Below, in pieces: positions 3,020-18,505 of a stretch of 21,096 nucleotides of DNA (positions are counted from its first letter, which is position 1; the number at the start of each line of letters is the position of its first letter). A program made the translations under genes and the position numbers. A model generated the notes under the pieces. The model made no database searches and was not told where the DNA came from. It saw only the letters and a program-made list of their open reading frames with translations. Source of the DNA: a virus; IMG/VR virus record IMGVR_UViG_3300026116_000108, positions 1 through 21,096 of that record, one strand, 5' to 3'.

Positions 3020-3148
3020 TGCCTTAGTCAATCTACTGTTGAGCCATCCAAAGCCCTCGTAGAGCGTTTTAACCACGCCCACAACGGCAATGGTCAATAG
3101 GCAACTCATGCAGAACAAATAGAACCCAAACAAAATCATTTGCACCAT
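3008..3148 (-). CDS. 46-residue single-span membrane protein
   Basis: The ATG at 3148 has an excellent ribosome site (GAGGTGAGCTGATG). The frame gives a 46-residue protein that begins MVQMILFGFYLFCM and continues with a hydrophobic stretch to about residue 26 (VVGVV). A basic tail ending TKARRK follows. This is a classical single-span inner-membrane protein with a positively charged cytoplasmic end. It fills the gap between two small genes in the same operon. Phage membrane peptides of this size can be holin-like, superinfection-exclusion or host-takeover factors. Which one applies cannot be told from the sequence. Confidence 0.65.
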   Translation of the reverse strand: MVQMILFGFYLFCMSCLLTIAVVGVVKTLYEGFGWLNSRLTKARRK

Positions 3149-3215
3149 CAGCTCACCTCGCGTTAAAATTGAGCGGCCGTGGTAGGGCAGGCCGCCGCAT
3201 GCGTGTTAACAACAC

Positions 3216-3503
3216 TCAATCCTTACCATACTTCTTGCGGTAGTAGGCCAACGTCTTCTGCATTTCTGTCTCCCACTCCTGCTTTTCTTTCTCCCAAGCA
3301 GCTTTTTGCTCCTCTTCACTCATCAGCTTCTTTTGGGCGGCATCGCCGCCCATAAGCAACGCCGCCACCTCATCCACCGGCACCTCTACTGTATGAAACC
3401 CCTCGCCCAGCGTATCGATCCAAGTCCTTCCATAGTCATCTCGCTTGACCCACGTGACATGCTCCTTATTCACCCAAATGTCGCCAATTTTCACCAACTT
3501 CAT
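3216..3503 (-). CDS. Hypothetical 95-residue protein with charged C-terminal helix
   Basis: The start at 3503 (MKLVKIGDIWVNKEH) is preceded by GGAG and overlaps the upstream stop as ATGA (3500-3503), so it is preferred to 3536. The N-terminal half looks like a small beta-fold with aromatic residues. The second half is a long, highly charged, probably coiled-coil helix (EEEQKAAWEKEKQEWETEM). No catalytic motif is visible. It may bind a partner through the helix, but its function is not recognised. Confidence 0.7.
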   Translation of the reverse strand: MKLVKIGDIWVNKEHVTWVKRDDYGRTWIDTLGEGFHTVEVPVDEVAALLMGGDAAQKKLMSEEEQKAAWEKEKQEWETEMQKTLAYYRKKYGKD

Positions 3504-3694
3504 AGCATCTCCTTCAAACTCTCCAGAAAATCGCAAATATGGTTAAACTTTACAGAAGGTAAATCTATCAAGTTTCGCAGTGCATCCGGCCTCCGCTCCG
3601 CCAACGCCTTCAATGCGTCCTCCTGCTCCGCGTTTTCCACATGTAATCGCAACACGTACGGTCTAAACTCGTTCTCTACTTTCTCAATCTTCAT
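3500..3694 (-). CDS. Hypothetical 64-residue protein
   Basis: I do not recognise this protein. It begins MKIEKVENEFRPYVLRLHVE and then becomes mostly helical. It overlaps both neighbours by 4 bp (ATGA at each end), a strong sign that it is translated as part of the chain. There is no cysteine motif, signal peptide or membrane segment. Its start follows a weak purine stretch, so translation probably depends on coupling to the 34-residue gene upstream. Confidence 0.65.
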   Translation of the reverse strand: MKIEKVENEFRPYVLRLHVENAEQEDALKALAERRPDALRNLIDLPSVKFNHICDFLESLKEML

Positions 3695-3795
3695 TTAAAA
3701 TCCTTCAACGCAGTATAAAAGTTCGCTAACACTCTCCGCACCACCTCGCCATTCACCAAGTCGGAGCGCTTCCTCAATTCACCCGCAACCTTCAT
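3691..3795 (-). CDS. 34-residue basic peptide with a strong ribosome site
   Basis: The ATG at 3795 follows AGGAGG at six-base spacing, one of the strongest ribosome sites in the window. The frame reads MKVAGELRKRSDLVNGE and continues as a short amphipathic helix to a stop overlapping the next ATG (ATGA). It also overlaps the end of the upstream gene by 17 bp. The peptide is basic and probably helical. Its function is unknown. The ribosome site and the coupled end make it likely to be real. Confidence 0.6.
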   Translation of the reverse strand: MKVAGELRKRSDLVNGEVVRRVLANFYTALKDFK

Positions 3796-3967
3796 TTCCA
3801 CCCTCCTGCTTCATCAACTCCATATACCGCGCATGCAACTTCAGCACCCTGCGCAACTCATCCGCCGTCCACGCTCCCTCTAACTCAATCTCTCCGTCAT
3901 CCAAAAAATACACTTCATAGAAACCCACAATTTCCTTCAACTCCGCCTTAATTTCCTCTAACGTCAT
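3779..3967 (-). CDS. Hypothetical 62-residue acidic protein
   Basis: I do not recognise this protein. The chosen ATG at 3967 has GAGGAG upstream within the end of the preceding gene. A GTG one codon earlier is also in frame. The protein begins MTLEEIKAELKEIVGF, is acidic and probably alpha/beta, and ends in a Gly/Asn/Cys-rich tail. It sits 3 bp after its upstream neighbour. The ORF is well placed in the train, but nothing in it indicates a biochemical role. Confidence 0.65.
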   Translation of the reverse strand: MTLEEIKAELKEIVGFYEVYFLDDGEIELEGAWTADELRRVLKLHARYMELMKQEGGNEGCG

Positions 3968-3970
3968 CAC

Positions 3971-4177
3971 TCACTCCTCACTCTCATTGATCCCGCCCCA
4001 CTCACTCGTCCAAAACTCCACTTTCTTGCCATTCTCAAACGTCACCACCAAACTCCCGCCATCCACCGCCAATTCCCCGCTATCGTTTATATAAACCAGC
4101 GCCTCCTTCACCTCCGCATCCCGCACAATCCCCCCAAATATCTCCCGCACCTTCACAAACAACTCGTAATTCGTCAT
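3971..4177 (-). CDS. Hypothetical 68-residue acidic protein
   Basis: I do not recognise this protein. The ATG at 4177 has GGAGTGA upstream. The N-terminal half appears helical (MTNYELFVKVREIFGG) and the second half is a beta-hairpin-like, acidic segment (GELAVDGGSLVVTFENGKK). It has no membrane segment or cysteines. It lies 3 bp after the stop of the upstream small gene. It may be an antirestriction-like or takeover protein given its acidity, but that is speculation from composition and position. Confidence 0.65.
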   Translation of the reverse strand: MTNYELFVKVREIFGGIVRDAEVKEALVYINDSGELAVDGGSLVVTFENGKKVEFWTSEWGGINESEE

Positions 4178-4180
4178 CGC

Positions 4181-4351
4181 TCACTCCATCCTATCCAAAC
4201 AATATCCCGCATCCACAAACCCCGACACAACCTGTTGCCTAATATGCATCCTCATGTACGCCCTCGCCTGTCTGCCCCACATCCAATACCATGCCATTAC
4301 CTCCTCTCTATATGCCCCTACGGGGCTGACATTTGACATCACACACTTCAT
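4181..4351 (-). CDS. 56-residue aromatic/basic protein (start uncertain: 4351 or 4297)
   Basis: The ATG at 4351 overlaps the upstream stop (ATGA) and gives 56 residues. An internal in-frame ATG at 4297 follows AGGAGG closely and would give 38 residues beginning MAWYWMWGRQARAYMRM. The hairpin at 4314-4326 lies between the two starts. The core is strikingly rich in Trp, Tyr, Met and Arg. It is not a clean membrane segment, but it could associate with a membrane or nucleic acid. Both starts leave the stop two to three bases before the next gene. I do not recognise the protein. Confidence 0.5.
   Translation of the reverse strand: MKCVMSNVSPVGAYREEVMAWYWMWGRQARAYMRMHIRQQVVSGFVDAGYCLDRME
4314..4326. 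other. GC-rich hairpin ahead of an internal ribosome site
   Basis: GCCCC (4314-4318) and GGGGC (4322-4326) pair around a three-base loop. On the leftward transcript it lies just upstream of the AGGAGG that could start the 38-residue form at 4297, so it could affect which start is used. There is no T-tract for termination. Confidence 0.35.
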
Positions 4352-4419: not shown

Positions 4420-4571
4420 AATTCACCCCCACCAATTGCCATCAACTCAAAATCCCGAAATGTATCGGCATCAACGTACCGAGATTCCAGGGGAATCTCG
4501 AACCACTCTTGAAAGACATGCATCTTGAAATGCCAATGCCAATCCAGCCTATAAAAATGCGACCACATCAT
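4416..4571 (-). CDS. 51-residue aromatic/His-rich small protein
   Basis: The ATG at 4571 overlaps the upstream stop (ATGA). A second ATG at 4568 is at better distance from the GAGGTG site, giving 50 residues. The N-terminus is full of Trp, His and Phe (WSHFYRLDWHWHFKMHVF), followed by an acidic middle and a Gly-rich end. I do not recognise it. The His/Trp cluster could bind a metal or a surface, but no defined motif is present. The gene closes the gap between the 55-residue and 23-residue genes. Confidence 0.5.
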   Translation of the reverse strand: MMWSHFYRLDWHWHFKMHVFQEWFEIPLESRYVDADTFRDFELMAIGGGEL

Positions 4572-4735
4572 GTCACCTCTTTAGTCTTCGTTACGGTTTC
4601 GAGGCGGCTTTGCCGCACCAATGTGCAAATTACAGCACCGTACTCTGCATCGATCTTATCTGCGGCCTTACGGGCCGCATTGCGCGTCTTGTACCGATGG
4701 ATTGTGTTGGTCTTGGTGTTTGTGAACTCGAACAT
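4568..4735 (-). CDS. 55-residue basic protein, paralogue of the gene at 5014-5157
   Basis: The ATG at 4735 follows AAAGGATAAATC, an acceptable ribosome site. The protein reads MFEFTNTKTNT at the start, and its middle carries a Lys/Arg-rich helix ending KIDAEYGAVICT. The same layout occurs in the 47-residue protein two genes upstream: M-[FY]-E, then KT, then a basic helix, then K-[IV]-D-x-EYGAV. The two are therefore probably duplicated genes. Their function is not recognised. The basic helix could bind nucleic acid. The stop overlaps the next start (ATGA at 4568-4571). Confidence 0.6.
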   Translation of the reverse strand: MFEFTNTKTNTIHRYKTRNAARKAADKIDAEYGAVICTLVRQSRLETVTKTKEVT

Positions 4736-4738
4736 GAT

Positions 4739-5017
4739 TTATCCTTTCATCACCCATTCAGCTTGCTTAAAGATGCGCCTTGCCATCATCCAATCCAACA
4801 TGCATCGATAACTTGCAAACAACGCTTCACTTACCACACCATCTGCATAGATGACTCTTATGCGCCCGTTGAAGTCGTTATTCTCATCCTTCCAGTACAC
4901 CAAGCGCACTACCTTTGCGGGATGCCTCAGTATTCCCCTCAGGTTCTTCGAGGTGAACGCTATGCTTCCATCAATGCGCTTGCCAACGGTGCTCCACTGA
5001 TCAATTGGATATTTCAT
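4739..5017 (-). CDS. Hypothetical 92-residue protein
   Basis: I do not recognise this protein. The start at 5017 (MKYPIDQWSTVGKR) is chosen because it overlaps the preceding stop (ATGA) and has GAGGTG upstream. The longer frame from 5053 would run through the upstream gene. It looks alpha/beta, with strands around VVRLVYWKDE and GRIRVIYADG, then a helix with paired aromatic and basic residues (CMLDWMMARRIFKQAEW). No known catalytic motif is visible. It stands between the two paralogous mini-genes. Confidence 0.7.
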   Translation of the reverse strand: MKYPIDQWSTVGKRIDGSIAFTSKNLRGILRHPAKVVRLVYWKDENNDFNGRIRVIYADGVVSEALFASYRCMLDWMMARRIFKQAEWVMKG

Positions 5018-5157
5018 GATTGCACCTCTACCAAACGCGGATAAGTGGTGCACACCGCACCGTACTCGCGGTCAACCTTGTTGCGCAGCTTCATAATGGC
5101 CTCCAGCGTGGCACGGCGATAAACCTGTCCAGTCTTCAGATTACGCATCTCATACAT
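5014..5157 (-). CDS. 47-residue small protein, first gene of the leftward train
   Basis: The ATG at 5157 follows AGGAGG at five-base spacing, a strong ribosome site. The protein begins MYEMRNLKTGQVYRR, continues as a basic helix and contains KVDREYGAVCT, matching its paralogue at 4568-4735. It is the promoter-proximal gene of the leftward small-gene train, so it should be expressed early. Its function is unknown. The stop overlaps the next ATG. Confidence 0.65.
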   Translation of the reverse strand: MYEMRNLKTGQVYRRATLEAIMKLRNKVDREYGAVCTTYPRLVEVQS

Positions 5158-5462
5158 GATAACCTCCTATACTACGCTAATTTTGTTCACCAAAGATCAT
5201 TCGCTACATGTGTAAGAGCCTGATCACGGGGCATAAGTTCACACCGGAGATCACGAATCGTAATTGATAGTTTTAATGCGTTCGGAGAACACAATAGTGG
5301 GTTTCAAATGGGCAAAACCGCTAAAAAACGCTATCATTTGCCTGTCTCTTTAGCGCCCACAGGGTAGGCTCGTTTGCCGTGCCAAAGGGACAACCCACAA
5401 AATGGGGACAGAGTGGAAGTGAACGGTCGTACTAATTGTTGTGTTAGAACAATAGGGCTGCC
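5158..5462. promoter_or_regulatory. Divergent control region between leftward and rightward genes
   Basis: These 305 bp hold no credible gene. They separate the leftward mini-gene train from the first rightward gene, so promoters in both directions are expected. I see the repeated heptamer GATCACG (5222-5228 and 5249-5255) and the segment GGCAAAACC...TTTGCC (5311-5342) that could fold. There is also a TGTCTC-TT-TAG-CG-CCC stretch (5343-5358) resembling the conserved core of the 2262/2508 repeats. ATTGTT/AACAAT lies just before the rightward gene. No strong sigma70 pair stands out on either strand. Confidence 0.45.
5435..5453. promoter_or_regulatory. Operator-like inverted repeat before the rightward gene
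   Basis: ATTGTT (5435-5440) and AACAAT (5448-5453) form a perfect 6-bp inverted repeat with a seven-base spacer, ending 9 bases before the ATG at 5463. Its position would allow a repressor to cover the transcription or translation start. Binding is inferred from symmetry and position only. Confidence 0.35.
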
Positions 5463-6799: not shown

Positions 6800-7003
6800 A
6801 TGAAACCGAGGATTAGACGCAGCACGTGTAGCAATGGGTGGGTGTGCATTGGGGACGGCATTTTTGCACATGGCCCTACTTCACACTCAGCTTATTGGAG
6901 GTGGAATATCGCCCTCAACGAACATAAATTTGCAACGGATATAGCTTTACGCCACGCTAGGGATACCCCCCACCCCCCGGCCGTCCCGGCCAGTTTAACA
7001 TGA
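6800..7003 (+). CDS. Hypothetical 67-residue protein
   Basis: The ATG at 6800 abuts the preceding stop and has GAGGG seven bases upstream. The first half has a compact pattern seen in other small phage proteins: MKPRIRRSTCSNGWVCIGDG, then a Gly/His turn and an A-Y-W-R-W motif. The second half is less ordered and ends in a Pro-rich tail. I cannot assign a role. It ends 26 bp before the convergent leftward gene. Confidence 0.55.
   Translation: MKPRIRRSTCSNGWVCIGDGIFAHGPTSHSAYWRWNIALNEHKFATDIALRHARDTPHPPAVPASLT
6979..6991. terminator. GC-rich hairpin between convergent genes
   Basis: GGCCG (6979-6983) and CGGCC (6987-6991) pair around three bases, between the end of the rightward small gene and the end of the leftward secreted-protein gene. 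It could act as a bidirectional terminator. The T-run on either side is poor, so confidence is low. Confidence 0.3.
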
Positions 7004-7029
7004 AAACCATGAACTGTGTAAATAAATTT

Positions 7030-7575
7030 TTAGCTTTCATGAAGCGCGCATTCACAGTCCGGCGGCGCAACACCGTTGCTCCAGGTACCGGGATCACAGA
7101 AAGTCTTGGTGGTGGGGCTGCCGTCAAGGAGAGCCGGGCTACCGTTGGACGTGTGGTTGATCGTGTCGTACCCAACACAAGCAGAGTTGCTATTCCGAAC
7201 GTAAAAAACTCGGGCGGGCATCGCAGTGATTTGGTGAGCAGTAGCGTCTCCCGCAGGTTTGTCGAATACGAGGATGCGCAGTGGACTGATGCGTTGATCT
7301 TGCATCGTGCGTGTGTCCCACTCCAGAGTAGCGCTTGTGCCGTCGCCGGAGGGCGTGAAAGTGGCGAAGATAGGCGCGTAGTTGAATTGCGGGACGAGTT
7401 CAGCATTCCGAATACCTTTTCCTTCAATACGGAAAGTGACGACGCTCGAAAGGATGTCTCTTGCGGGACTTTCAACCAGGGTGGCGCAGAAGTCGGAAGC
7501 ACAGTAGTCAGTAGCTCCTGCGGAGCCGATTACGGAGGCGGTAGCTATAGCAGCAGCAATGATTTTGGGGGACAT
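7030..7575 (-). CDS. Secreted Ig-like protein encoded against the late genes
   Basis: The ATG at 7575 has GGAG at eight bases. It encodes a Sec-type signal peptide (MSPKIIAAAIATASVIGSAGA), with cleavage likely after AGA. The mature part has paired Cys near its N-terminus (YCASDFC), then an Ig-like domain (VVTFRIEGKGIRNAELVP... FATFTPSGDG... ISPLRILVFDKPAG). Cysteines follow near residues 137, 160 and in CEC (residues 175-177). The domain aligns along its length with the two Ig-like domains of the GH16 protein at 16127-18505. The antisense frame at 7000-7605 has no such support. It is the only clear leftward gene in the late half, so it probably has its own promoter and acts in the periplasm or outside. 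The role is unknown. Exclusion or adhesion is speculative. Confidence 0.85.
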   Translation of the reverse strand: MSPKIIAAAIATASVIGSAGATDYCASDFCATLVESPARDILSSVVTFRIEGKGIRNAELVPQFNYAPIFATFTPSGDGTSATLEWDTRTMQDQRISPLRILVFDKPAGDATAHQITAMPARVFYVRNSNSACVGYDTINHTSNGSPALLDGSPTTKTFCDPGTWSNGVAPPDCECALHES

Positions 7576-7661
7576 GATAGTTACTCCACAACGAACGATT
7601 TCTGATTTCATGTTTGCACGCGCCGCCATATTCGCTTTGTGCGAGCGCAAAAGGGGGTGCG

Positions 7662-8129
7662 ATGGGCGGAAGAAAAGCTAAATACACGACCCGCATTGCC
7701 AAGCGTATATGCGAGCACATCGCATTGGGTGCTACGCTGCATCAGGCGCTTGCCAAGGAGCCCTTAGGGCCTTCTGTGCCTATGTTTTGGCGTTGGCTGG
7801 ATGAGTATCCTGAGTTTCGGGAGATGTACGAGAGGGCGCGTGTGTTGCAGGCGGATTTGATGTGCGACACCATTATGGTGATGGCTGAGAACGTGTTGAA
7901 GCAACCGCGTTTTGCGGCGGCGTACAAGGTGGCGGCGGACATCCTGAAGTGGCAAGCGGAGATCAGAAATCCGGCGCGCTACGGCTCGAAGGTGACGGTA
8001 GAGCATAAGGCGACTCTAGACCCGGCGAAGATGAAGAAAGAGATCATGCAGCTTGAGAAAGAGCTTGGATTGCTGGGCATGGAGGAGCGAACGATTGATG
8101 CGGAGATAGTGGAGGCCAAGGGTGAGTAA
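7662..8129 (+). CDS. terS: Terminase small subunit (Sf6-like)
   Basis: This 155-residue protein is expected to recognise phage DNA and to bring it to the large terminase. The N-terminal half is the DNA-binding type: RIAKRICEHIALGATLHQAL, followed by an aromatic-rich segment (PMFWRWLDEYPEFREMYERA) that resembles the Sf6/P22-like small terminase. The helical C-terminal part ends with acidic residues. I chose the ATG at 7662, with GGGGG at four bases. The frame extends upstream to 7614 without a ribosome site. The gene overlaps the large-subunit start by 8 bp, the usual pairing. Confidence 0.9.
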   Translation: MGGRKAKYTTRIAKRICEHIALGATLHQALAKEPLGPSVPMFWRWLDEYPEFREMYERARVLQADLMCDTIMVMAENVLKQPRFAAAYKVAADILKWQAEIRNPARYGSKVTVEHKATLDPAKMKKEIMQLEKELGLLGMEERTIDAEIVEAKGE

Positions 8130-9579: not shown

Positions 9580-9876
9580 ATGGATCACAAAGTTAAAGCG
9601 AATTGGCGCAGGCTGGTTGACGGACAAGGCCGGAAAGTGCGGGCGTTGAACATCCACGTGCCGCAGGATCACCCCCAAGTGAAGCGGTACCCGTTGACGC
9701 ACCAGTATATGAAGGCGTTTTACCTGTCCACTTCTGCAGGAAGTATTAACAACTCGCGCAATTGGCGGCTAGATCAGTTCTTAGTGGTGGATACCGGCTC
9801 GAAAATTTCGGCGGTTGATAGACAAGTGGCGAATTTTTGGAAGTTAAACACATCAGCTAGTGCAGGAGCAGCTTAA
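9580..9876 (+). CDS. Hypothetical 98-residue protein between terminase and methyltransferase
   Basis: I do not recognise this protein. The ATG at 9580 has AGGAGC upstream. It is basic at the N-terminus (MDHKVKANWRRLVDGQGRK) and contains aromatic and Ser/Asn-rich stretches, ending in a Ser/Ala tail. It overlaps the methyltransferase start by one base (TAATG). Its position would fit a packaging or head accessory, or the first member of the modification cassette. Nothing in the sequence decides this. Confidence 0.7.
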   Translation: MDHKVKANWRRLVDGQGRKVRALNIHVPQDHPQVKRYPLTHQYMKAFYLSTSAGSINNSRNWRLDQFLVVDTGSKISAVDRQVANFWKLNTSASAGAA

Positions 9877-10613
9877 TGAATCTTGAGGAATACCAGCAAA
9901 TTCAGCCCCATGTAAAGGCCCATGGCTTGACTTGGCTTGTTCCGAACACGCATTGCGCGTGGCGCGTGGACTCGTTGATGGAAAAAGAGCCTGATACGGT
10001 GGCTTGGATCGAGAAAATGGGTGAAGGCGACGTGCTTTTCGATGTTGGCGCTAATATTGGTCAATATGCGATGTTGGCTGCAAAGAGAGGTGTTTTTGTG
10101 CATGCATTCGAGCCAGAAAGTCAAAATTTTGCGCTCTTGTGCCGCAATGTAGCCGTCAACGAATTGAACAAAAACCTGCGTGTTTGGCCTATTGCGCTGG
10201 CAGATCAGCCCGGATTGCACACGTTTTACGTGCAGTCGCTCATTCCGGGTAATTCCTGCAATACCTTAGGACAGAAGACCGACTACAACCTCAAACCCAA
10301 GGACAATTGGGGCTTCGAGCAAGGCTGCGGGGCCATGACGTTGGACTTTTTTGCGGATACTTTCGGCCCGCCGACGCATATCAAGCTGGACGTGGATGGC
10401 TTGGAGCATAAGGTGCTCCTGGGCGCGATTCGTCACATGAAAAACGTGAAAAGTGTGTTGGTGGAGACCAATTACAACCTCCCTGAACACCAGATTTTCG
10501 ACCTCTACATGCAGGAGCACGGGCTTTTTCCGGATGAGGAAACGGCGGAGAGGGCAAAGCGCACGGAAGGAGCGTTTAAGGACATTGGCAACCGCATTTA
10601 TTACAGAAAATGA
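9876..10613 (+). CDS. FkbM-family SAM-dependent methyltransferase
   Basis: This 245-residue enzyme is expected to transfer a methyl group from S-adenosylmethionine, often to a hydroxyl of a sugar or polyketide in this family. Motif I is FDVGANIGQ (55-63), with the ribose-binding acidic residue in HAFEPE (76-81). The later motif IKLDVDGLE (169-177) is typical of FkbM proteins, and a final strand carries VKSVLVETNYN. The phage substrate is unknown. It is the first enzyme of a tightly joined cassette with two 2OG/Fe(II) oxygenases. The stop overlaps the following start (ATGA). Nothing indicates a DNA methylase (no DPPY or PC motif). Confidence 0.9.
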   Translation: MNLEEYQQIQPHVKAHGLTWLVPNTHCAWRVDSLMEKEPDTVAWIEKMGEGDVLFDVGANIGQYAMLAAKRGVFVHAFEPESQNFALLCRNVAVNELNKNLRVWPIALADQPGLHTFYVQSLIPGNSCNTLGQKTDYNLKPKDNWGFEQGCGAMTLDFFADTFGPPTHIKLDVDGLEHKVLLGAIRHMKNVKSVLVETNYNLPEHQIFDLYMQEHGLFPDEETAERAKRTEGAFKDIGNRIYYRK

Positions 10614-11218
10614 CAAAGCGAAATCCTTGTGTTTGGGCCTCTCAGAACCCTCGCATTGCTCTCTTCACTAACTTTTTGTCGGATGAGGAGTGCAACTATC
10701 TGATTGAGCTATCTGAGCCGCGCATGATCCGCTCCACCGTTGTCGTAGACAATGATGAGCCTGACGCGGTGCATGATGGACGCACCTCAAGCGGCTGCTG
10801 TATCGAGCGAGGGGAGACGGCGCGCATCACCGCTATTGAGAGGCGGTTGGCGCAGCTAACCGGCACGCCTCTTGAGAATGGTGAAGGGCTGCAGGTGTTG
10901 CGGTATGAAGAAGGGCAACACTACTTGCCGCATCACGACTATTTCGACCCTGGCGTTGGCGGTTATATGAAGTACCTGGAGCGCGGCGGGCAGCGCACGC
11001 ACACGTGCATCATGTACCTGTCGGACGAGTTCGAGCAGGGGGAAACGGAGTTTCCACTTCTGAGGTGCGTTGTGCCTCCTCGCAAGGGTTCCGTACTGGT
11101 GTTTTGCAATATTACGCCTGAAGGTAGGTTAGATGAGCAAACTCTGCACGGCGGCAGGCCGCCGGTAGGTGGTGTGAAGTGGATTGCAACGAAGTGGATT
11201 AGACAGAGGGTTTTCTAA
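10610..11218 (+). CDS. Prolyl-4-hydroxylase-like 2OG/Fe(II) oxygenase
   Basis: This 202-residue enzyme belongs to the P4Hc type of 2-oxoglutarate/Fe(II) oxygenases, which hydroxylate proline or related residues. The iron ligands are H108-x-D110 (LPHHDYF) and the distal His180 (TLHGGRPP). Lys190 (VGGVKWIATKW) is positioned to bind 2-oxoglutarate. DGRTSSGC near residues 56-63 and VLRYEEGQHY (96-105) match the family. The length is usual for a stand-alone domain. It overlaps its neighbours on both sides by 1-4 bp. The substrate is unknown; polyproline tracts in the later surface proteins are candidates. Confidence 0.9.
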   Translation: MTKRNPCVWASQNPRIALFTNFLSDEECNYLIELSEPRMIRSTVVVDNDEPDAVHDGRTSSGCCIERGETARITAIERRLAQLTGTPLENGEGLQVLRYEEGQHYLPHHDYFDPGVGGYMKYLERGGQRTHTCIMYLSDEFEQGETEFPLLRCVVPPRKGSVLVFCNITPEGRLDEQTLHGGRPPVGGVKWIATKWIRQRVF

Positions 11219-11907
11219 TGAGCGATGTGAATGTTGAAGGGCATGTGCTGTATTCGTTGCGCAATGCGCGGGTTAATCCCTGGCCTTTTCCGCACTTTTA
11301 TGCGGAGAATGTCTTTCCGGACGAGACTTACTGGAAGATATACGACTACGTAAGCAAGAAGGGAGCGGAGGAGTACACACAAAGTAAGAACAACTACAAC
11401 GGGCGTCTTTTTGCCAAAGATACCGATGAAGACATTACGTTCTTGGGCCTGGATTTCTTGAAATCCGAGGACTTTTTGCGGCATGTGGTGAAGATTTTCC
11501 GTGACGAGTTTTCTATGCGGTTTACGGATTATACCCGCGTCAAATTAAGCAATGATCTGCGCTTGATTCGCGACGGCAGGGATTACTCGATTGGCCCGCA
11601 CACCGACGCGCCGCATAAGGTGGTGAGCATGTTGTTTTACCTGCCTTTAGATGGTTGGAACCACGACTGCGGCACAAGTATTTACCTGCCGAAGGATCGT
11701 AGCTTTCGCTGCGCGGGCGGCCCGCATCGTAAGTTCGAGGACTTCGACAAGATCTTCACAGCACCCTTCCTGCCGAATACTTGCTTAGGCTTTTTCAAGA
11801 CGGATTACAGCTTCCACGGGGTGGAGAAAATAGAAAAGGATTTTCAGCGGGACGTGCTTCTGTACAATGTTTATCATGGAAACATAAACTCTCTGTCATC
11901 TGAATAA
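11218..11907 (+). CDS. Second 2OG/Fe(II)-dependent oxygenase
   Basis: This 229-residue protein is a different 2OG/Fe(II) oxygenase, not a duplicate of its neighbour. The metal triad appears as H128-x-D130 (IGPHTDAPH) and His200 (SFHGVEK), with Arg211 (FQRDVLLYN) placed for 2-oxoglutarate. The strand after the HxD is VVSMLFYLPL, as in the double-stranded beta-helix fold. Similar enzymes are frequent in aquatic phages. Their substrates, which may be glycans, proteins or nucleic acid, are mostly unknown. The start overlaps the previous stop (TAATG). It ends 21 bp before the portal gene, which has its own strong ribosome site. Confidence 0.85.
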   Translation: MSDVNVEGHVLYSLRNARVNPWPFPHFYAENVFPDETYWKIYDYVSKKGAEEYTQSKNNYNGRLFAKDTDEDITFLGLDFLKSEDFLRHVVKIFRDEFSMRFTDYTRVKLSNDLRLIRDGRDYSIGPHTDAPHKVVSMLFYLPLDGWNHDCGTSIYLPKDRSFRCAGGPHRKFEDFDKIFTAPFLPNTCLGFFKTDYSFHGVEKIEKDFQRDVLLYNVYHGNINSLSSE

Positions 11908-14157: not shown

Positions 14158-14390
14158 GCATCATGCAATCCACAAATGAGGTTCAGAGCAACCTCAAGCA
14201 AGCTATCCAGACGCTTCTGGAGTCTCAATACAACCTAATGCAAATTTCGCAACAAGGGAACACTGCGTTTGCGGCGGCGCTTTCGCAACTGGCGCAGGCC
14301 ATCACTGCGCCGCGCACCCTGATCAATGATGCCAACGGGAACCCTGTTGGCGTGTCTTATCAATCCACCCAAGGAAGTCAGAATGTCTGA
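14154..14390 (+). CDS. 78-residue protein that duplicates the portal C-terminal tail
   Basis: The gene starts at an ATGA overlap with the portal. Its last part reads QAITAPRTLINDANGNPVG, aligning with the portal end QALTKPRMLQYDQSGRPVG. Over the 29 aligned residues I count 15 identities. The N-terminal 40 residues are a helical Gln-rich stretch, again like the portal tail. It is therefore likely to be a duplicated and detached piece of the portal C-terminus, perhaps a plug, adaptor or assembly factor. The role is inferred. The stop overlaps the scaffold start. Confidence 0.75.
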   Translation: MSIMQSTNEVQSNLKQAIQTLLESQYNLMQISQQGNTAFAAALSQLAQAITAPRTLINDANGNPVGVSYQSTQGSQNV

Positions 14391-15270
14391 TGGTTTAACG
14401 CCTGATGAAATCAAGTTCTTCGAGACCGGCGACGCCTCCGTGTTGGGTTTATCGGGCGATGCTCCTGCCCCTGCCTCTGCACCTGTTGAATCGCCTGCGC
14501 CTAGCCCAGTACCTGAACCGGCACCGGCTCCTGCACCCCCTCCAGTAGAGGACACCCGAGCTCAGCAATTGGCGCAGGAACAAGCGTACCGTGCCCAATT
14601 GGAGGCGCAACTGCGGGCGATTAACGAGCGTCTGGAGCAAGCTACAAAGCCGCCCCCACCGCCGCCGAAGGTTGCGCCGGATCCTGCGCAAGACCCGTAC
14701 GGCCATCTGATGCACGAGATCAACAGCATCAAGGAAGCCTTGACCGGCATCAGCCAGCGCACGGAAGCCGAGCAGCAGCAGTACGCGCAGCAACAACAGT
14801 TCTTGGCGCTGAAAACCAAGGTGGAGACAGCGCGCAACGATTTCATGAAGAATACGCCGGACTTCCAAGAAGCCTATCAGCACCTGCGGAATGCTCGAGC
14901 GCAGGACTATCGGGACGTAGGAATTGCGGAGGAACGTATTCCCGAGGCGCTATTGACGGATGAGTTGGCGGTGTCGCAGAACGCGCTTAAGCAGGGCAAA
15001 AATCCTGCGGAGGTGGTCTATAACATGGCCAAGCGCTACGGCTACACACCGAAGGCGGCAGCGCCTGCTGCAGTTGACCCGGCTAAGCGCGTAGAGCAGA
15101 TTATTGCGGGCCAGAAGGCTGCGGACGTGCCGCCGCGGGGCGCGCCGACCGGCGAGATTACGCTTTCCTCGCTGAAGGATGCTTCGGAGGCGGATTTGAA
15201 CAAGGTGGCGCTGGACGACAAGCTGTGGAGCAAAATTGTCGGCGGCGGCAAAAACGACATCTTCGGGTAA
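14383..15270 (+). CDS. Head scaffolding protein (predicted)
   Basis: This 295-residue protein is acidic and Pro/Ala-rich at the N-terminus (SPAPSPVPEPAPAPAPPPVE), with a helical, Gln-rich middle and a PPPPPP stretch (TKPPPPPPKVAP). Its position after the portal, its low complexity and its predicted helical content are typical of scaffolding proteins that guide capsid assembly and then leave. The C-terminus (LWSKIVGGGKNDIFG) would be the coat-binding end by analogy. I chose the ATG at 14383, with AAGGAAG upstream, over the frame opening at 14326. No protease motif is seen. Confidence 0.75.
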   Translation: MSDGLTPDEIKFFETGDASVLGLSGDAPAPASAPVESPAPSPVPEPAPAPAPPPVEDTRAQQLAQEQAYRAQLEAQLRAINERLEQATKPPPPPPKVAPDPAQDPYGHLMHEINSIKEALTGISQRTEAEQQQYAQQQQFLALKTKVETARNDFMKNTPDFQEAYQHLRNARAQDYRDVGIAEERIPEALLTDELAVSQNALKQGKNPAEVVYNMAKRYGYTPKAAAPAAVDPAKRVEQIIAGQKAADVPPRGAPTGEITLSSLKDASEADLNKVALDDKLWSKIVGGGKNDIFG

Positions 15271-15273
15271 GCC

Positions 15274-15507
15274 ATGAATGATGACGTCAAAATTCGGATA
15301 CACATTACCAAAGGGAGCTTAGTACTTGCGGAACTACACTCAAGCGTGGACGGGGGCCGACACGAATTTCGGTTTGCGCAACCCATACAAGTTAAAGGAC
15401 GTCACTTTGACGGTTTCGCAGTCGAGTGCTACATCGACCAGGAGACAAGACATGTCTGTTACGACGACCGACCAGAGCGGAAGCTCGAACTCCCCTTTAC
15501 GCGCTGA
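15274..15507 (+). CDS. Hypothetical 77-residue protein after the scaffold
   Basis: The ATG lies three bases after the scaffold stop. The product is beta-like and charged (KIRIHITKGSLVLAELHSS... GRHEFRFAQPIQVKG), with two Cys near its end, and no recognised family. The ribosome site is weak. A competing frame (+1 phase, opening at TTG 15326) covers 15326-15451 with more GC-rich third positions, so which frame is used here is uncertain. A normal phage would carry its major capsid gene at this spot. Confidence 0.5.
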   Translation: MNDDVKIRIHITKGSLVLAELHSSVDGGRHEFRFAQPIQVKGRHFDGFAVECYIDQETRHVCYDDRPERKLELPFTR

Positions 15508-15667
15508 ATTGTCAGATTTGGCGCGCAAGGAGCTGCTGCGCGAGATTGCGGACTTGACCGGCGAGAAGTACACCGTAGAATGTCGATTGCAATGGATCAA
15601 CAATCGCGTGGATGAATTGAGGCAGCGGCTAGCTACCTCAAGGCGGCACGGCAATTCAAAGGGATAA
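15452..15667 (+). CDS. 71-residue protein with a basic coiled coil
   Basis: The ATG at 15452 has GGAGAC at a good distance. The product has a Thr/Ser-rich start (MSVTTTDQSGSSNSPL), then a charged helix with heptad character (DLARKELLREIADLTGEKY... NRVDELRQRLATSRR). The same frame is open upstream to 15326 but without a good start. It overlaps the end of the 77-residue gene by 56 bp. A structural or adaptor role is suggested by position only. I do not recognise it. Confidence 0.6.
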   Translation: MSVTTTDQSGSSNSPLRAELSDLARKELLREIADLTGEKYTVECRLQWINNRVDELRQRLATSRRHGNSKG

Positions 15668-15671
15668 GAAA

Positions 15672-16127
15672 ATGGCTTTTTTTGGCAACTCTGTGCAACC
15701 GGCTGCGCCCGGCACGACCAATGATGTTTTAACGCTCACGTCTGCCAATGGCCGTAAGCTTCGGCTGGTGGAGTTGTCAGTTTGCGGCCTCGGCACTTCC
15801 AGCGCCGCCAATGAGTTGGGGGTAAAGCGCCCGGGGCAACTTGGCTCCACGCCCACCAACCAAGCCAGTATCCCGTTAGACCCTGACTGCGGTTCTTGCA
15901 GCGCCACGGTGGCCACCGGGTGGACCACGCAGCCTTCCTTGGGCACGGTGGCTATGCTGCGCCTGGGCTGCAACAGCAACGGGGCGATTTATCGTTGGGT
16001 GGCTACGCCGGGCATGGAGATTACCTGCCGGGGCGATTCATTGACCACGCATGCGTGCCTTTCGTTCCGCTTCACTACTGGCGGCGCAGGGCCGATGGGC
16101 GTTCACATCGTCTTTGAGGAATTGTAA
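15672..16127 (+). CDS. Predicted virion structural protein, 151 residues
   Basis: A ribosome site (AAGGGATAAG) precedes the ATG. The protein is Gly/Thr/Ser-rich and probably all-beta, beginning MAFFGNSVQPAAPGTTNDVL. It contains KLRLVELSVCGLGTSSAANE, patterns familiar from phage decoration or fibre-like proteins, and has five Cys. It overlaps the GH16 protein start by one base (TAATG). It could be a head decoration, a head-tail adaptor or a tail-surface protein. I favour a surface protein because of its composition and its neighbours. Confidence 0.65.
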   Translation: MAFFGNSVQPAAPGTTNDVLTLTSANGRKLRLVELSVCGLGTSSAANELGVKRPGQLGSTPTNQASIPLDPDCGSCSATVATGWTTQPSLGTVAMLRLGCNSNGAIYRWVATPGMEITCRGDSLTTHACLSFRFTTGGAGPMGVHIVFEEL

Positions 16128-18505
16128 TGCCTATCATTGACCCGACCACGCCTTCGGGCGTGCAGCCGGTTGGCTTCGGCTCCGGCTTCACGCTCATTAT
16201 GTCCGATGAGTTTAACAGCACGGGACTCGATAACAAATGGAACAACGCACACGATTTTGGGAACTATGGTTCTACTAGCGCTTGGGACGTCAACAACAGC
16301 AACAATTCCTGCTTGCGCATGTGGTACAACGGCGCTGGAGGTGGCACGCCGTCTAACCAGATGTTTGGCTCCAACGGAGCCGCACGCGGTGGGCAGTCCT
16401 GGCGGGGCCGGTTTGGCTATTACGAGGCGCGCATTCAATGCATACGCGGGCGCGGCTTCTTCCCCGGCTTCTGGTTGTATCCGCTTTCCGACGGCAACGG
16501 CGAGAATGGCGACGGCAGCCAGCAAGAGATCGACATCGATGAGTGGTTTTCCTATGAAAATGGGGATTGGCTTGTTGATACCAGCGCCTTCCGTTGCAAG
16601 AACTCGTCCTTCACCATTTGGACAGAAGGCGGGGGCGGCAGCACTAACCAAGCAGGGCACTTAAGCTTCACCAACACACGTGGCTACGACACTACCGTCA
16701 GCACGCAATTCCACACGTATGCCATGTATTGGGCCTCCTCTGGCGGCCTGAAGTGGTACTACGATGGCAATCTCCTGGGCACCATTAACGACCCCTGGGG
16801 TGCTGGCAACAACATGCAACTGGTGTTGTTCCTGCAGCTTTGGTGGGGCCCTGGCGGAGGTAATCCTACGCCGGACGGCAACACACCGCAGGGTTCCAGC
16901 AATAGCATGATCTTTGATTATGTGCGGGTGTGGAGCATTGCGGGCTCTCCGAGTCCTGCGCCGCCTCCGCCACCGCCGCCGCCCTTTAGCGCATCGCTCA
17001 CTACTGCACCAACGGATGGCGCTACTATCAGCGGTACTGTCAACTTCCAAATCGACGGCCAAGGCATTAAGAATGCCGAGCTGCTGCCGGCGACTGGCTA
17101 CACGCCCAGCTACGGCACCTTCACGTTGTCCAACAACGGTGCGCACGGCGACTTCAACTGGAACACAACCAATGTCGCCAACGGGCCAATAAGCGTACGC
17201 ATCTCCGCGTTTGACCAAGCGGCAGGCGTATCGCCTGCCAATGAGATAGTGGCGATGGCGTCGCGTACCTACAACGTCAACAACTCGCCATCGTCACCAC
17301 CTCCGCCGCCACCACCTCCGGGAACGTTAGTTTGGCCGTACGGACGCAACAGTTCCGGCTTTGACAACATGACCTTCTACGACGAGTTCGATTCCGGCAC
17401 CACGCCGGATACCTCGCGGTGGACAAATCATTACTACTACGAGGCAAGCAACTCCACGGTCAACTATGACGTGAACGGCGGCTATCTGCGCATTTGGCCC
17501 AAGGTGGATGGCTCCAACAACTTTTTCAACCGTGTGTTCACGACAGAAAACTTCTTTACGCAGCAATATGGGTACTTCGAGGTACGCGCACAGTTGGATC
17601 ACGGCGATGGCTTACATCCGGTCATCGGCATTATTGGGAACAACAACAAAGATGTTGGGTACATGCATGCCTATGGGAACGCACCGTCCGGCGGTTGGAC
17701 TTCTGGCACGGCTGTCATCGATTATGCGTGCGCTGTTTTCGATATTCCCACACAGACCTTTAACTTCGACACTCGGCCCGGCACTGCTGCCCTTGGTGGA
17801 GCTAACTTAGCAAACAGCTTCCATTACTACGCATGTGAGTGGACACCCAACAATATCCGCTTCTTCTACGATGGCACGCAGGTAGAAGAGTGCGTAATTA
17901 GCGTCACCGGCCAGTTCTACCCCTATGTAGGGCTGGCGATGCAAACCAACGAGACTACGGCCAACACCACCGGCACGCCGCAAGGCACAGCCAATGCCAT
18001 GCTAGTAGATTATGTTCACGTTTGGACGCTGCATAACAACGCCAACTCTGTGCCCGGCACCTCTGCGCCAGCGCCGTTTGGTATCACGCAGGTAACTGCT
18101 CCGCCGGACGGCGCAAGCATTTCCGGGGTGGTGGCCTTCCGTGTAGAAGGCAACCTTTTGGCAAACGTGGAGCTGCTACCGGCAACTGGTTACACGCCTA
18201 TTTATGGGCAGTTTTCGCTTTCCTCAGGCAACACGGTGGCCGAGCTCAACTGGAGTTCTACTGCGGTGGCCAACGGAGCTATTCAGGTGCGCATCTCCGC
18301 GTTTGACCATAGCGCAGGGCAGGCAGCTAGTGAATTGGTTGCCATGCAGCCGCGCACCTACTACCTCAACAACACGGCAGCGCCTCCGGGGCCTGCTCCT
18401 ACACCTACGCCAGTACCGCCGCCTCCGCCAACAGATCGCGGGCTGCAATACCTTTATTCGGAACTCCTTGGCCGCTTGCCTTGGATTAGGCGCGGGCGGC
18501 GGTAA
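16127..18505 (+). CDS. GH16 tail enzyme with two GH16-fold domains (one without the catalytic motif) and Ig-like domains
   Basis: This 792-residue surface protein probably degrades or binds the host's polysaccharide coat. Residues 1-272 form a GH16 domain with the acid motif EIDIDE (134-139; Glu134 nucleophile and Glu139 acid/base by family rule) and the GFWLYP substrate strand. An Ig-like domain follows (about 292-385) after a polyproline linker. A second GH16-fold domain (about 400-640) keeps the YGYFEVRAQ and FHYYACEWTPNNIRFFYDG landmarks but has GNNNKDVGYMH where the acids should be, so it is probably non-catalytic. A second Ig-like domain (about 656-749) and a Pro-rich C-terminal segment complete it. 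The substrate (laminarin-, agar- or xyloglucan-like) cannot be told. Overlaps its upstream neighbour by TAATG. Confidence 0.9.
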   Translation: MPIIDPTTPSGVQPVGFGSGFTLIMSDEFNSTGLDNKWNNAHDFGNYGSTSAWDVNNSNNSCLRMWYNGAGGGTPSNQMFGSNGAARGGQSWRGRFGYYEARIQCIRGRGFFPGFWLYPLSDGNGENGDGSQQEIDIDEWFSYENGDWLVDTSAFRCKNSSFTIWTEGGGGSTNQAGHLSFTNTRGYDTTVSTQFHTYAMYWASSGGLKWYYDGNLLGTINDPWGAGNNMQLVLFLQLWWGPGGGNPTPDGNTPQGSSNSMIFDYVRVWSIAGSPSPAPPPPPPPPFSASLTTAPTDGATISGTVNFQIDGQGIKNAELLPATGYTPSYGTFTLSNNGAHGDFNWNTTNVANGPISVRISAFDQAAGVSPANEIVAMASRTYNVNNSPSSPPPPPPPPGTLVWPYGRNSSGFDNMTFYDEFDSGTTPDTSRWTNHYYYEASNSTVNYDVNGGYLRIWPKVDGSNNFFNRVFTTENFFTQQYGYFEVRAQLDHGDGLHPVIGIIGNNNKDVGYMHAYGNAPSGGWTSGTAVIDYACAVFDIPTQTFNFDTRPGTAALGGANLANSFHYYACEWTPNNIRFFYDGTQVEECVISVTGQFYPYVGLAMQTNETTANTTGTPQGTANAMLVDYVHVWTLHNNANSVPGTSAPAPFGITQVTAPPDGASISGVVAFRVEGNLLANVELLPATGYTPIYGQFSLSSGNTVAELNWSSTAVANGAIQVRISAFDHSAGQAASELVAMQPRTYYLNNTAAPPGPAPTPTPVPPPPPTDRGLQYLYSELLGRLPWIRRGRR
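17078..17217 (+). repeat. First copy of intragenic Ig-domain repeat
   Basis: Bases 17078-17106 match 18170-18198 at 26 of 29 positions, and the 20-base block CGCATCTCCGCGTTTGACCA (17198-17217) recurs exactly at 18290-18309. The two Ig-like domains are a fairly recent internal duplication. Confidence 0.7.
18170..18309 (+). repeat. Second copy of intragenic Ig-domain repeat
   Basis: Partner of 17078-17217; see there for the exact match. The spacing between copies is about 1.09 kb, so recombination between them would delete the second GH16-fold domain in frame. Confidence 0.7.

Follow-up and report, generated by a model that had tools for sequence, protein, structure and literature searches.

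A predicted exported moron protein of a podovirus-like phage shares an Ig-like domain with lipoproteins of the Noviherbaspirillum group and with phage GH16 proteins

Phage-encoded lipoproteins that exclude superinfecting phages have been described for T5 (Llp; PMC9586334) and TP-J34 (Ltp; PMC3952083). The protein considered here, designated P0001, resembles them in being encoded by a phage outside the structural genes and in being exported, in its case by prediction (PMC9586334, PMC3952083). However, Llp and Ltp are lipid-anchored proteins with demonstrated exclusion, whereas P0001 is unanchored and is known here from its sequence. The window, i.e., the whole stretch of DNA that was analysed, is a virus record of 21,096 bases from a podovirus-like phage with terminase and portal families of the Sf6/P22 type. 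The P0001 locus contains the following features:

7030..7575, minus strand: whole coding sequence of P0001 with stop codon, a 181-residue predicted exported Ig-domain protein (from the ORF and homology to the Ig domains of a GH16 protein and to host lipoproteins)
7513..7575, minus strand: predicted Sec/signal peptidase I signal peptide, residues 1–21, cut between AGA and TDYC (from the sequence, the hydrophobic core, and the lack of a lipobox)
7183..7491, minus strand: Ig-like domain, residues 29–131 (from homology and an AlphaFold2 model with pLDDT >90 for residues 30–130)
7030..7182, minus strand: Cys-rich C-terminal tail, residues 132–181, of the class-C type of host lipoproteins (from tail alignment, HMM, and cysteine positions)
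7584..7587, minus strand: GGAG Shine-Dalgarno-like site, 8 nt upstream of the P0001 ATG (from the sequence)
7662..8129, plus strand: terminase small subunit gene (terS), the divergent neighbour, with a likely ATG start at 7662

Gene, Signal Peptide, and Genomic Setting

The ORF and coordinates of P0001, which starts with the ATG at 7575, were checked and found to be correct. A plus-strand ORF antisense to it (7000–7605) was judged spurious. The signal peptide, MSPKIIAAAIATASVIGSAGA, is followed by TDYC and contains one Lys, a strongly hydrophobic core, and an AXA cut site. The best 12-residue Kyte–Doolittle mean of the core was 2.48, the highest among the window proteins checked. These features bear out the Sec signal peptide that the earlier note had assigned to the protein. 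No lipobox was found in the sequence before the first Cys (TDYC). All six cysteines (positions 25, 30, 133, 160, 174, and 176) are located within the mature part, which suits an exported, disulfide-bonded protein. Three additional records of this phage contain the gene in intact form, and both the gene and its protein are identical across all four. The promoter search for P0001 gave matches at chance level only, and no terminator was found. A strong hairpin without a U-run lies 3′ of the gene (window 6950–7045, minus strand; z −2.6) and is a possible transcript end.

The minus-strand genes on the left of the window are of the early type (a Sak4-like annealing protein and an exonuclease), and those on the plus strand, starting with terS, are structural. 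P0001 is located between a gp49-like gene region and terS, from which it diverges, on the early-gene strand. The earlier description of the gene as a lone minus-strand gene in the late region was thus correct in that plus-strand genes flank it on both sides; however, the minus strand is that of the early genes, and the site is the early/late boundary. The nearest syntenic phages, L080, L081, and MW202512, have terS, terL, FkbM, and portal genes in common with the window phage (terL identity of 66–67% for L080 and L081). Neither P0001 nor any Ig match was found in these three phages, and the interval before terS in L080 contained no P0001-type gene. P0001 is an accessory phage gene of the moron type, and its absence from this site in the three relatives agrees with the moron-like character first proposed for it.

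Other observations concern the remainder of the window. Between terL and the portal gene (9876–11907, plus strand) are genes for an FkbM methyltransferase and a 2OG-Fe(II) oxygenase and a phrog_1644/YhhC-like 2OG gene, the first and last of which are conserved in L080, L081, and MW202512. When window 10000–11500 was compared with L004 and L006, the 2OG gene differed by 46–58 synonymous codons with 0–1 replacements; near identity was seen for P0001 and most of terL. This mosaic divergence suggests recombination and strong purifying selection. Of the ORFs scanned from the scaffold-like gene to the GH16 gene (14326–16127), none was recognised as a major capsid gene, and relatives have different genes at this point.

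The Ig-Like Domain and the GH16 Protein of the Same Phage

The window phage also encodes a GH16 protein that contains two Ig domains:

16127..18505, plus strand: GH16 protein with the order GH16, Ig, GH16-like, Ig, and Pro-rich linkers; no signal peptide seen
16982..17296, plus strand: first Ig domain of the GH16 protein, 40% identity to P0001
18074..18376, plus strand: second Ig domain of the GH16 protein, 37% identity to P0001

At these identities, a tblastn search of the window's own record matched the P0001 Ig domain to the first and second GH16 Ig domains with E-values of 4.6e-20 and 3.6e-16, respectively. The local alignment scores were 189 and 153, compared with shuffle maxima of 60 and 54 (z-scores of 31 and 26). 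The Ig domain that had been suggested to be common to P0001 and both domains of the GH16 protein was therefore confirmed, with the shuffled scores far exceeded. The ExDxxE motif (residue 134) is kept solely in the first GH16 domain of this protein; the second, which is devoid of it, may be a binding pseudo-enzyme.

In the AlphaFold2 model, residues 30–130 of P0001 form a high-confidence beta-sandwich with Ig/FnIII-like PDB neighbours, in keeping with the domain assignment. The C-terminal tail was modelled with a pLDDT near 50 and was left unused. The best structural neighbours (Z 6–7) were accessory Ig/FnIII modules, including the N-terminal domain of chitinase A and the FnIII domain of CbhA. 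With the P0001 model, no PDB or viral match fell below E 0.001 in Foldseek, and no Z of 8 or more was obtained with VIA-align; only a general Ig/FnIII-like fold is therefore claimed for the domain, and this is supported by the model.

The Ig family is absent from Pfam, PHROGs, and NCBIfam, and no family emerged when PADLOC and the PDB were searched by sequence. P0001 did not reach the gathering score of Pfam Big_7 or of the named Ig families. Big_7 (PF17957) and other bacterial Ig-like domains have the general fold and the start pattern P.dGA.vsG in common with the family of P0001; however, the Big_7 profile gave E 0.11 in just one of three domains, and the family is therefore not assignable to it. 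A match to ribosomal S10 (E 0.01, a 33-residue stretch) was taken as chance. A tblastn search of 50,697 phage and 72,556 plasmid records yielded no Ig relative, and peptide-pattern scans built from the GH16 Ig alone gave no match; the relatives were located by hand-made degenerate DNA patterns. Both family motifs, N[AV]EL[LV]P..(G/N)Y.P and R(I/V).(A/V)F(D/N), are present in the Ig domain of P0001 (about 100 residues), the best identity of which to any relative is about 43%.

Relatives in Host Genomes and Other Phages

The degenerate DNA pattern for N[AV]ELLP..GYTP detected 15 loci in genome_contigs, nearly all of them in Noviherbaspirillum, Herbaspirillum, or Keguizhuia, and the Ig domain at these loci was confirmed by blastp. 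Ig matches were obtained in 19 of the 294 genomes in the family of N. autotrophicum, in 14 of the 15 genomes within its genus (the Noviherbaspirillum group), and in none of the 397 other genomes in a phylum-wide draw. The last two values tie the Ig module to one host lineage. There are up to 15 copies of the domain per genome, and the family is nearly confined to the Noviherbaspirillum group. Most carriers in these genomes are lipoproteins, and the Ig domain is a repeat unit of surface-type lipoproteins, which fall into four classes:

Class A: three tandem Ig domains
Class B: DUF4214 (Pfam match) and Ig domains
Class C: one Ig domain and a Cys-rich tail
Class D: one Ig domain and a PLGFYGPW..C tail

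The lipobox of the host members is of the ..ACGGG type, and P0001 does not have it. Among the loci recorded, L011–L025 and L064–L077 encode unnamed lipoproteins with one to three Ig repeats, some of them fused to DUF4214. In one host lipoprotein (L075, 8462–9799, plus strand), the region after the same Ig domain contains an HELIH motif and may be a metalloprotease.

The class-C lipoproteins of the Noviherbaspirillum group, exemplified in N. autotrophicum by L018 (2926–3789, minus strand) and L069 (8510–9334, minus strand), resemble P0001 in that a Cys-rich tail comes after a single Ig domain of the same family. Residues 132–181 of P0001 align with this tail. With an HMM built from five host tails, P0001 ranked first of the 291 window frames, with a moderate E-value of 5e-4 (the next frame had 0.28). 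The tail match was also reached by 0 of 5000 shuffles. The cysteine spacing is C-x26-C-x13-C-x-C in P0001 and about C-x27-C-x12-C-x-C in the host proteins, and P0001 also contains the (S/T)K..C.P motif of the class. Unlike P0001, the host proteins are chromosomally encoded and carry a lipobox, a long linker of low complexity, and an additional tail segment (GRAARC...VVCI; GR[AT]A[RK]C...PVVCI as the class pattern), which is absent in P0001. With the tail kept and these three elements missing, P0001 has the architecture of a trimmed, unlipidated class-C protein. The class-C loci of the hosts sit within conserved chromosomal neighbourhoods, which rules out that they are prophage genes, and the other viral contigs yielded no class-C tail.

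A comparison of trees addressed the origin of the P0001 Ig domain. The two GH16 Ig domains were sisters with support of 97–98, while the best trees placed the P0001 domain outside this pair, together with other phage enzyme Ig domains and one host protein (support of 71–94). Forcing it together with the GH16 domains cost 4.8 log units, and monophyly was not rejected (AU p = 0.34). Copying of the P0001 domain from the GH16 protein of this phage is thus neither supported nor rejected by the tree and the AU test. The view of P0001 as a secreted copy of a tail domain, which the earlier note had put forward, is unsupported as stated: the best trees place its Ig domain outside the GH16 pair, and its tail is of the host-lipoprotein type, which suggests that a host-type lipoprotein contributed to P0001.

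The Ig module was also found in other phage contigs. In L027 (42 kb), the gene for a type-D Ig lipoprotein (3129–4214) is the last in a run of plus-strand genes and faces lysis genes. In L117 (65 kb), which carries an integrase and is therefore probably temperate, an Ig lipoprotein (4491–5327) adjoins phrog_4389 genes, which are present in L027 as well. In L007 and L118, the Ig domain is located inside GH16/SGNH multi-domain proteins near tail genes. These very large proteins (L007 9523–13428, minus strand; L118 8337–11384, plus strand) combine GH16, SGNH/GDSL, and Ig domains, with DUF4874/DUF4832 in L007, and are probably exopolysaccharide-degrading tail enzymes, as judged from their domains. 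The first of the two GH16 domains of L118 also appears without ExDxxE. The Ig domains of L007, L118, and the window GH16 protein belong to the same family as that of P0001 (37–43% identity); however, they are internal modules between catalytic domains and have no Cys-rich tail, and the window GH16 protein, unlike P0001, has no signal peptide. Exported and enzyme-linked forms were seen together only in the window phage, although other records may be partial. The recurrence of the Ig domain in two phage contexts, i.e., lipoproteins and GH16/SGNH enzymes, suggests selection on both, and by analogy with the recurring Ig lipoproteins a surface role of P0001 is plausible.

Possible Roles of P0001

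Taken by its sequence features, P0001 is a predicted exported phage moron with host-like domains. We tentatively propose that it acts in exclusion or as a decoy at the host surface through the shared domain, a reading that is possible rather than probable. The host of the window phage would be a Noviherbaspirillum-type bacterium, as suggested solely by the restriction of the Ig domain to such hosts; a portal search of the 294 family genomes, run without a positive control, found no related prophage. During infection, P0001 would be exported via Sec, cut by signal peptidase I, and folded with disulfides, and the mature protein would remain in the periplasm or leave the cell. It could then occupy an envelope or exopolysaccharide partner used by the host Ig lipoproteins and by the Ig domains of the phage enzyme, and fewer sibling or rival phages would re-adsorb to infected cells and debris. 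In favour of this reading are the Ig homology to the phage's own GH16 protein, the tie of the module to one host lineage, the class-C tail, the recurrence of the module in other phage contigs, the absence of the gene from the nearest syntenic phages, and the precedent of Llp and Ltp. Several points count against exclusion: without the lipid anchor of Llp, Ltp, and the L027 and L117 lipoproteins, P0001 might diffuse away; its Ig domain may be only a structural spacer; and neither a promoter nor a terminator stood out above chance.

A rather more doubtful alternative is that P0001 is a captured host surface protein that alters the envelope of the infected cell or its exopolysaccharide matrix (and thereby adhesion, biofilm, or stability) with no exclusion, as a conversion-type moron. 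The match of both its tail and its Ig domain to chromosomal host lipoproteins with conserved neighbourhoods is consistent with this, as are the probably temperate, integrase-bearing contig L117 and the fold neighbours among accessory modules of chitinases and a cellulase; however, an integrase was not among the genes recognised in the window fragment, and P0001 has lost the lipid anchor that the host proteins have.

Ig-like modules are common in phages and glycoside hydrolases, and P0001 might accordingly be a spacer of generic Ig fold that lacks a specific partner, its gene being passenger DNA of little function. The lack of a detected promoter and the absence of the gene from the nearest relatives would fit, but the frame, ribosome-binding site, signal peptide, six cysteines, and Ig signature have been kept despite the low best identity to any relative, and the gene is present in all four records of the phage. 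We regard this reading as unlikely.

Less likely still is that P0001 is a partner or competitor of the phage's own GH16 enzyme, binding the same glycan or the enzyme itself and shielding the infected cell from released GH16 protein. Both proteins, with their common Ig domain, occur in one phage, and other phages place the domain beside GH16; however, elsewhere a lipoprotein and an Ig-bearing enzyme were not found in one record (records may be partial), and the Ig domain may be a mere linker. Ig-like domains decorate many phage virions, but a reading of P0001 as a component or decoration of the virion, with a hydrophobic N-terminus that does not serve as a signal peptide, is highly improbable in view of the signal-peptide features, the Cys-rich mature part, the early-gene strand, and the homologues with lipoprotein signals.

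In conclusion, the sharing of one domain by host lipoproteins, a phage exported protein, and phage enzymes is, on the alignments obtained, real and somewhat surprising. A fairly unlikely generalisation from these cases is that phages of Noviherbaspirillum-type hosts use one Ig module, specific to the host lineage, both in polysaccharide-degrading enzymes linked to the virion and in proteins, exported or lipid-anchored, that keep out phages with such enzymes, a self-exclusion through a common binding domain. The unnamed, lineage-restricted Ig family, which occurs in surface-type lipoproteins of hosts as well as in exported proteins and GH16/SGNH enzymes of phages, yields a host prediction for phage contigs that are otherwise orphans, and the P0001 system allows a direct test of whether phages reuse an enzyme binding module as an exclusion factor.
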